Assembly: GCA_011390675.1 (NCBI GenBank)
Contig: JAABRX010000021.1
Location: forward strand, 1 to 43,692
Direction: 5' to 3'
From: Trueperaceae bacterium
GTDB taxonomy: Bacteria > Deinococcota > Deinococci > Deinococcales > Trueperaceae
DNA length: 43,692 bases
The position numbers were made by a program, and so were the translations under genes. The notes below the pieces were generated by a model that did not search any database, was not told where the DNA came from, and saw only the letters and a program-made list of their open reading frames with translations. How positions within the stretch are numbered: position 1 is the stretch's first letter; each line of letters opens with the position of its first letter. Below are positions 25,273 to 26,998 of the stretch, piece after piece.

Positions 25273-25282
25273 TACGAAGCGG

Positions 25283-26257
25283 TCAGTCGTCGGCCGCGAC
25301 GACGCGGCCGCGCCCGGCGTGCTTGGCCGCGTACAGCGCACGGTCCACGCGCTTGATCGCCTCTTCTGCCGGCTCGCCGTCGCGCAGCACGATCGCACCG
25401 ATGCTGACCTGCACGCCGTTCGGAACGTCGGCGCCGCGGGGTGCACGAGCTGCCGTGAGCAGCCGGTCGGCGACCTCCGACGCGTGGTCGAGGTCGGCGT
25501 CGGGCAACAGGACCGCGAACTCGTCGCCGGCGAAGCGGGCCGGTACGTCGTACGCGCGCACCGACGCGCGCATCGCGTGCGCCACGGCGATCAAGTGGGC
25601 GTCCCCCGTCGGGTGCCCCCAGCGATCGTTGGTCTGCTTGAAGTCGTCGATGTCGAGCATCAGCAGCGCGGCGGCGTGGCCCCGCGTCACGCGCTGCGTC
25701 GAGGCTTCGAGGTGGTCGAGGAAGGCGCGGCGGTTGGCGAGACCGGTGAGCGCATCGGTGGCTGCAAGCGTCTTGAGCGCCTCTTCCCGCGCCTCGAGCC
25801 GCCGGCGCGCCAGCACCAGTTCCCGCTGCGTGTCCGCCAGCTCTTCGTTCAGGCGCAGGACCGCGTCGAGCGCGGCTTGGGTCTCCTCGGTGGCGTGCTC
25901 GGCGAGCACGACGAGGCCATCTCCGCGTCGGGCCGCGGCGCCGCGCAGGCTGAGCGCGCGCTCGTTCGCGTCCACGACCGTGAGCAACCCCCGGTACGCC
26001 ACCCCTTCGGCGTCCACCGGCCGTGCGAACAGCTCCTCGAGCGTCGGGGACGCGAACACCCCGGCCGCTCGCTCCGGGTCGGGCGCCCCGTCCAACTGGT
26101 GGGCCAACGCCGCGAAGCCCAGGTTCGCTCCCGTCAAGCGGCCCCGTTCGTCGAACGCGGCCCACACGACCGTGCGGAAGGCGCGGAGCAGCGCCAGGGC
26201 GTCCGGCGGGCTGCCGGAGCCCACCACGAGGTCGTCGGACCGCTCATCCGAGGGCAT
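25283..26257 (-). CDS. PAS-like/GGDEF diguanylate cyclase
   Basis: A 324-residue cytoplasmic protein. Residues 18-122 look like a PAS-type sensory fold, 125-165 a signalling helix (coiled coil) and 166-322 the GGDEF domain. Substrate-binding residues are present (DIDDFKQTND), the active-site loop is AGDEF at 243-247, and an RxxD product-inhibition site (RAYD, 234-237) lies five residues before it. AGDEF differs from the common GGDEF by one residue; related variants are known to be active. Expected to make c-di-GMP. It overlaps the upstream cobalamin-binding gene by 14 bases and has a GGAG site nine bases before the ATG, so the two are co-expressed. Confidence 0.9.
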   Translation of the reverse strand: MPSDERSDDLVVGSGSPPDALALLRAFRTVVWAAFDERGRLTGANLGFAALAHQLDGAPDPERAAGVFASPTLEELFARPVDAEGVAYRGLLTVVDANERALSLRGAAARRGDGLVVLAEHATEETQAALDAVLRLNEELADTQRELVLARRRLEAREEALKTLAATDALTGLANRRAFLDHLEASTQRVTRGHAAALLMLDIDDFKQTNDRWGHPTGDAHLIAVAHAMRASVRAYDVPARFAGDEFAVLLPDADLDHASEVADRLLTAARAPRGADVPNGVQVSIGAIVLRDGEPAEEAIKRVDRALYAAKHAGRGRVVAADD

Positions 26258-26945
26258 CGACGGCGCTCCGTACGTCCGCGTGGGCGGCGTCCGCGTCGAC
26301 GTCGGCCGCCGTCAACGCTCCGCTCACGAAGGGGAACCCGCCCACGACGACGAGGGGGGTAGGGTTGCGATCCGATGCTCGCGCGGCGGCCGCGACGGCC
26401 CGCGCCGCGCCGGCCTGTTCCGCGTCCGAGAGCGACAGCCCGATCACGTCGGGCGCCTCGGTCCGCACGAAGTCGATCAGGTCGTCGGTCGGCACGTTCG
26501 CGCCGAGCGACCGCACCTCCCAGCCGGCGATCGCGAAGGCGTCGCTCAGGATCCGGACGCCCAGCGCGTGGTGGTTGCCCGCCACGCACGCGAACACCGC
26601 CTTGCGGCCGTTCGGGGCGGCGACGTCGGCGTCCAGGAACACTTGGCTGAGCAGCATGGTCGCGTTCGCGGTGGCGAGGTGTTCCTGGGCGACGGTGATT
26701 TGGCGCTCGGCCCAGCGCGTGCCGACCTCGACGAGGGCAGGACCGACCACGTCGGCGGCCACGTCGGCGTACGAGGCGCCGTCCACGAGCGCGGTGCGCA
26801 GCGCCGACCAGGCGTCCTTGGTGTCGCCCGAGACGAGGGCGTCGGCGAACACCGGGGCCGCGAGCAGCTCCACCGAACCGGTCGCGCCTCGCGTGCTCGC
26901 GCGCGCGTCGCGATCCAGGTCGTGGCCACGAACAGGTGCGTTCAT
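26244..26945 (-). CDS. stand-alone cobalamin-binding protein with CarH-like photoreceptor motif
   Basis: A 233-residue cytoplasmic protein. Residues 25-105 form a four-helix-bundle cap with W78-x9-E88-H89, the W-x9-EH motif that CarH/LitR photoreceptors use to cap adenosylcobalamin. Residues 112-233 form the Rossmann-like B12 domain: GNHHALG (123-129) matches E/D-x-H-x-x-G with N in place of the acid and H126 as candidate lower ligand, followed by GLSLSD and VVVGGFPF. Unlike CarH there is no MerR helix-turn-helix; the first 25 residues are polar and short. Output may instead pass to the overlapping diguanylate cyclase. Leaderless ATG start at 26945. Light response is an inference from the motif. 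Confidence 0.86.
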   Translation of the reverse strand: MNAPVRGHDLDRDARASTRGATGSVELLAAPVFADALVSGDTKDAWSALRTALVDGASYADVAADVVGPALVEVGTRWAERQITVAQEHLATANATMLLSQVFLDADVAAPNGRKAVFACVAGNHHALGVRILSDAFAIAGWEVRSLGANVPTDDLIDFVRTEAPDVIGLSLSDAEQAGAARAVAAAARASDRNPTPLVVVGGFPFVSGALTAADVDADAAHADVRSAVDALG

Positions 26946-26950
26946 GGCTC

Positions 26951-26956
26951 AGGGTA
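26951..26956 (-). promoter_or_regulatory. -10 box, leaderless promoter of the cobalamin sensor/diguanylate cyclase operon
   Basis: TACCCT on the minus strand, five bases (GAGCC), then the ATG at 26945. Confidence 0.68.
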
Positions 26957-26998
26957 CCCCCGACGCGGCGCAGGGTGCGTGCGCCCGCACCGCGCGCG

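Follow-up and report, generated by a model that had tools for sequence, protein, structure and literature searches.

Within the window, by which we mean the whole analysed stretch of 43,692 nucleotides from a Trueperaceae bacterium, two overlapping genes lie on the minus strand. P0001 (26244..26945) encodes a stand-alone cobalamin-binding protein of 233 residues, with a four-helix cap and a Rossmann domain and with neither a globin nor a helix-turn-helix (HTH) domain, while P0002 (25283..26257) encodes a diguanylate cyclase of 324 residues with a PAS - long helix - GGDEF organization. Both open reading frames are intact, and the first-pass annotation had placed them correctly, including their overlap of 14 nt (26244..26257, minus strand); an overlap of the same length is found in a second genus of Trueperaceae (L005:803-816). 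The start of P0002 is supported by a GGAG at 26266-26269, 8 nt 5' of the start and within the P0001 gene. The single leaderless promoter that was proposed to serve both genes is unproven: the hexamer TACCCT (26951..26956, minus strand), a weak candidate for a -10 element, ends 5 nt before the ATG of P0001, but a promoter scan near P0001 found neither a two-hexamer promoter nor a terminator. Since the EamA gene, which runs in the same direction as the pair, ends 53 nt upstream of P0001, read-through into the pair is possible.

The Pfam matches of P0001 are limited to B12-binding_2 (1.3e-11) and B12-binding (2.7e-19), with no HTH detected by Pfam, and its AlphaFold2 model (pLDDT 91) consists of a four-helix cap and a Rossmann fold. 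On the minus strand, the GxxW and EH elements are found as G75-T-R-W78-x9-E88-H89 (26679..26723), of which W78-x9-E88-H89 falls inside GTRWAERQITVAQEH, followed by the GxxH/HxxG motif of the lower axial histidine, G123-N-H-H126-A-L-G129 (26559..26579), and by the GxxxP element, G148-A-N-V-P152 (26490..26504). Pfam and the motif scan together confirm the earlier description of a 233-residue B12 protein that carries W78, E88 and H89 and is devoid of a DNA-binding domain. All four SignatureFinder elements (GxxW, EH, GxxH and GxxxP) as defined in PMC11796333 are present; this signature was derived there for light-responsive cobalamin domains and separates putative light-responsive domains from other cobalamin domains. 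The corresponding residues vary little or not at all among 43 relatives of P0001, with W78, E88, H89 and H126 strictly invariant in the alignment. As GxxW-x9-EH occurs only once among the 87,380 six-frame codons of the window and its residues are invariant in the 43 relatives, the motif is not a chance occurrence.

The domain had initially been regarded as CarH-type, an assignment that the phylogeny, the sequence search and the fold search correct to photocobilin-type. In the sequence search the best solved relatives are the photocobilins 8j2w and 8j2x, ahead of CarH, and the best fold match is again photocobilin 8j2w (E 1.1e-15, TM 0.79; about 0.65 for most TtCarH chains). In a sensor tree of 69 rows, P0001 and its homologue from L005 are sisters (support 98/96) within a clade of 23 rows (96/96) whose other members belong to Pseudomonadota and one planctomycete, and the CarH proteins of Deinococcota, including that of the host itself, form a separate clade at 100/100. 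Both Trueperaceae sensors have long branches in this tree and are 41-42% identical to each other. On these three lines of evidence, P0001 is a photocobilin-type cobalamin domain nested among proteobacterial photoglobin-B12 proteins. P0001 shares the Wx9EH cap, the GxxH ligand motif and the Rossmann and four-helix fold with CarH/LitR, but differs from them in having no HTH, in belonging to a separate clade and in having no histidine after the cap tryptophan, the residue which becomes the light-state ligand in the bis-His form of CarH. This position is Ala (A79) in P0001 and Gln in most relatives, and SasPcob likewise has no histidine there in the alignment; the Trp-His pair is common in CarH, although not universal (PMC9304148). 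The NCBIfam model for CarH gives P0001 46.6 bits vs a cut-off of 400. The possibility that P0001 is a CarH protein that has lost its HTH was considered and is ruled out by the tree and by the host having a CarH-like gene besides P0001. The product of that gene (L002, G000 C216) has a MerR HTH, a complete Wx9EH motif and the Trp-His pair, and light sensing by AdoCbl through transcription control therefore probably exists in the host beside the pair.

In the partner protein P0002, the GGDEF domain of the proposed PAS-GGDEF organization is borne out by Pfam (4.2e-44); the PAS domain finds no Pfam match, and its assignment rests on the AlphaFold2 model (pLDDT 90), in which a PAS-like alpha/beta domain is followed by a single helix and then by GGDEF. 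The PAS-like domain (residues 30-121; 25895..26170, minus strand) and the long helix of 43 residues (residues 124-166; 25760..25888, minus strand), the latter including LNEELADTQREL (25817-25852, minus strand), form the two halves of what we refer to as the receiver module. P0002 has the sequence features of a diguanylate cyclase, namely the AGDEF active-site motif (25517..25531, minus strand) and DIDDFKQTND with the metal-binding Asp and the conserved K, N and D residues. VCA0965, which also has the AGDEF variant, is an active enzyme (PMC3974145). The RxxD inhibitory site, R234-A-Y-D237 (25547..25558, minus strand), lies 5 residues before AGDEF and is intact. In the fold search P0002 matches SiaD (PDB 7e6g) best, a cyclase solved with its activator SiaC, over about 204 columns of P0002 rather than over its full length. 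The resemblance extends to the arrangement, as SiaC-SiaD also combines a diguanylate cyclase with a separate activator protein. SiaC is not known to be a cobalamin protein.

A genome-neighbourhood check shows that the linkage of the two genes is kept among relatives. The same pair (L005) is present in the Trueperaceae genome G003, of a second genus, where the cyclase is about 40% identical to P0002 and the downstream genes differ. Across 49 related loci, counted as those outside Actinomycetota and CarH, the PAS-like domain and LNNEL..QREL helix are found in a partner protein at 46, and in nearly every case this partner is encoded by the gene next to the sensor, in the same orientation. These loci also served to refine the receiver-module profile, whereas a search of 111 genomes of the phylum is independent of them. 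This profile (A5) matches P0002 with an E-value of 1.7e-50, and in the phylum search the module was detected in two genomes, exactly the two that encode a close homologue of the sensor. In the host (G000) only one of 32 GGDEF domains carries it. Behind the module the output is GGDEF at nine of the 49 loci (L025, L026, L028, L033, L036, L038, L042, L043 and L070) and in both Trueperaceae pairs; most of the other loci have a kinase with a HATPase domain. The distances between sensors and those between modules are correlated (Mantel r 0.75, 0 of 5000 permutations, the relatedness of the rows not being removed), and the same subclades are recovered in the sensor tree and the module tree. No natural fusion of the sensor to this PAS-cyclase was seen among the loci examined, and a plasmid search returned distant relatives only.

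Some individual loci add to this picture of outputs. In the trees of sensor and module alike, the cyclase L042:4122-5129 is nested among the kinases L031, L032, L037 and L039, a placement that suggests swapping of the output behind a constant module. The gene following the sensor at L079:4079-4852 encodes a LuxR-type HTH (GerE 1.9e-14) together with the helix LNNRIVNRQREL, and may represent a transcriptional output for the same plug. At L033:4101-5354 (minus strand) the module-bearing cyclase is convergent, tail to tail, with its globin-B12 gene, and at L061:506-1837 and L093:3-989 the receiver module is upstream of the sensor, in proteins which also contain an ABM (antibiotic biosynthesis monooxygenase) domain. 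The relatives thus suggest that a single sensor can work with output proteins that are exchangeable. A broader proposal, that the B12 light sensors of this clade act in trans through a common PAS and LNNEL..QREL plug onto GGDEF, histidine kinase and perhaps LuxR-type HTH outputs, with the Trueperaceae pair as the minimal version, is tentative, and we regard it as nearly, but not quite, an even proposition.

The proteobacterial relatives of P0001 possess an additional N-terminal domain of ~130 residues, which Pfam calls Phycobilisome (2e-5) in two of them. A profile built from this domain matches most related loci: Pseudomonadota and Bacillota have the globin at the N terminus and Actinomycetota at the C terminus, and in two methanogens it has a gene of its own. 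The profile search found no globin domain in any frame of the window, of L005 or of the pseudomonadotal locus L038, and no photoglobin-like gene elsewhere in the Trueperaceae genomes G000 and G003. Because the fused bilin-binding globin is absent, we class P0001 as a globin-less relative of photocobilins and not as a photocobilin. No heme oxygenase was found in either Trueperaceae genome with a model that is also negative in eight of 15 genomes of relatives, so that its absence says little about a link to bilin. The usual arrangement in Pseudomonadota, Bacillota and other relatives is a globin-B12 protein followed by a PAS-helix-output protein, with photoglobin-B12 proteins beside histidine kinases or GGDEF, an association with signalling domains reported by Schneider et al. 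2022 (as cited in PMC10979010); both Trueperaceae members differ in being entirely without the globin. In Methanobacteriaceae (L046:3375-5774 and L053:3447-5733), a globin-less B12 sensor is followed by a separate globin-like gene of ~145 residues and then by a PAS/LNNEL kinase. The globin-B12 frame of Pseudoduganella namucuonensis, an isolate, has an in-frame stop within the globin domain (L036:2910-4106), which points to a sequence error or to a shortened protein that starts without the globin. A weak photoglobin-like match (1e-4) was also obtained in a frame of 432 residues from another Trueperaceae genome (L127, G030 C73:1158-1463), possibly an RsbR-type globin.

The pair is located in a segment (25273..26998) that is absent from a congener, G016 (L118). 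There, the homologues of the flanking OadB and EamA genes, 89.6% and 78% identical to those of the window, are directly adjacent, their stop codons separated by about 25 nt, whereas in the window the two genes flank about 1.7 kb that contains the pair. The GC3 of the pair is 0.91 vs 0.94-0.98 in neighbouring genes. The empty site suggests a recent, probably horizontal acquisition of the pair, and we infer gain by this lineage to be more likely than repeated loss because only two genomes of the phylum carry the pair and its GC3 is slightly lower. The source was probably a proteobacterial globin-bearing ancestor, the bilin-binding globin having probably been lost. The host assembly is 79% complete and in 324 contigs; contamination was considered and judged unlikely, as the flanks are 78-90% identical to the congener, in the same order and around an empty site.

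Considering these observations together, the pair is likely to be a two-protein, globin-less light switch of photocobilin type, in which the sensor acts directly and in trans on a diguanylate cyclase dedicated to it, by way of the PAS domain and helix. P0001 would bind adenosylcobalamin, for which the host encodes a forming adenosyltransferase (9.8e-63), in the base-off/His-on mode via H126, with W78, E88 and H89 packing on the adenosyl group. Green light would then split the Co-C bond and rearrange the cap and the dimer interface, a state that the PAS domain and the adjoining helix of P0002 may sense by direct contact. In turn, the PAS/helix unit would set the pairing of the GGDEF domains, such that c-di-GMP output tracks light or, failing that, AdoCbl supply. 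Direct control in trans via PAS/helix is proposed on account of photocobilin precedents and of the SiaD-SiaC fold match. The photocobilins SasPcob and AbDPcob (PMC10979010; 8j2w, 8j2x, 8j2y) have the same type of cobalamin domain as P0001, and in AbDPcob, a CBD-globin-DGC fusion, this domain controls a diguanylate cyclase: AdoCbl lowers DGC activity and light raises it more than 10-fold. Separate photocobilins acted in trans on the isolated DGC domain and regulated it, and SEC-MALS indicated a probable heterodimer (PMC10979010). The Trueperaceae pair differs from these photocobilins in lacking a globin/bilin domain in P0001, in having sensor and cyclase natively encoded by two genes, and in having a PAS domain and the LNNEL/QREL helix in the partner. 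In the same study, biliverdin-free SasPcob acting in trans had the opposite sign, with activation in the dark and inhibition in light; as the closest characterised proteins keep the globin and the sign was reversed in this case, the direction of the output is uncertain, and light activation is our guess, held with slightly more conviction than the reverse.

An alternative is that the pair senses the supply of AdoCbl or another corrinoid rather than light, with ligand binding altering the sensor and through it the cyclase, and photolysis being incidental. We consider this unlikely but worth retaining: the motifs of P0001 indicate contacts to AdoCbl and not photochemistry, AdoCbl binding by itself lowered the DGC activity of AbDPcob (PMC10979010) and the host has its own adenosyltransferase. 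However, the light signature is complete, the signature proteins tested in PMC11796333 and PMC10979010 are photoactive, and light sensing based on AdoCbl fits with the further CarH-like gene of this genome. It is improbable that the globin-less sensor is a decaying remnant or only a constitutive scaffold for the cyclase. Although nearly all relatives keep the globin, the terminal branch is long and GC3 is slightly below that of neighbouring genes, the frames are intact with all ligand residues retained, the globin-less form recurs with the 14-nt overlap in a second genus, and L038 in Pseudomonadota is another globin-less member. Even less probable is a redox or oxygen co-regulator like AerR/PpaA, in which a protein with bound cobalamin would act on its partner as the redox state dictates. 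AerR does match P0001 distantly (7te2, 1.2e-17), and proteins of this type co-regulate a partner according to PMC9144470 and PMC10734443, but AerR ranks far below the photocobilins in the search and no PpsR/CrtJ-like gene adjoins the pair. It is hardly credible that the B12 domain carries methyl groups on a corrinoid, or has some other metabolic role, and lies beside the cyclase by accident: the fold superfamily is common with MtbC/MetH and NCBIfam matches are weak and far below cut-off, but the Wx9EH cap, the phylogeny, the recurrence of the linkage across many genera, the strict co-occurrence of sensor and receiver module and a separate MetH in the host all speak against it.

The favoured interpretation, a globin-less light switch acting on its cyclase in trans, agrees only in part with the first-pass annotation. 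The suggested light- or B12-dependent switch through c-di-GMP stands as far as an HTH-less B12 sensor linked to a c-di-GMP enzyme is concerned, light sensing and protein contact being inferred. Its view of CarH-like sensors as MerR repressors was too narrow in light of the light-activated CBD-globin-DGC fusion, and the "different output design" that it saw was largely anticipated by the same study (PMC10979010); the missing globin and a PAS/helix receiver common to kinases are distinct. Control of c-di-GMP by light through a domain of the photocobilin class, both fused and in trans, is already known (PMC10979010). New, as far as checked, are the globin-less two-gene form, its signature of acquisition in Trueperaceae and the receiver module common to cyclases and kinases. 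Photocobilins had provided a case of a c-di-GMP enzyme under the control of B12 photochemistry, and the function of their stand-alone members was called less clear (PMC10979010). A green-light sensor that needs no biliverdin and has a separate cyclase as its target would make a compact component for optogenetics. A natural globin-less pair, its dedicated partner and a conserved element that is a candidate for the contact bring the coupling mechanism within reach of experiment, and if the sensors of the clade do act through a common plug, the Trueperaceae pair would show that coupling can do without the bilin globin.
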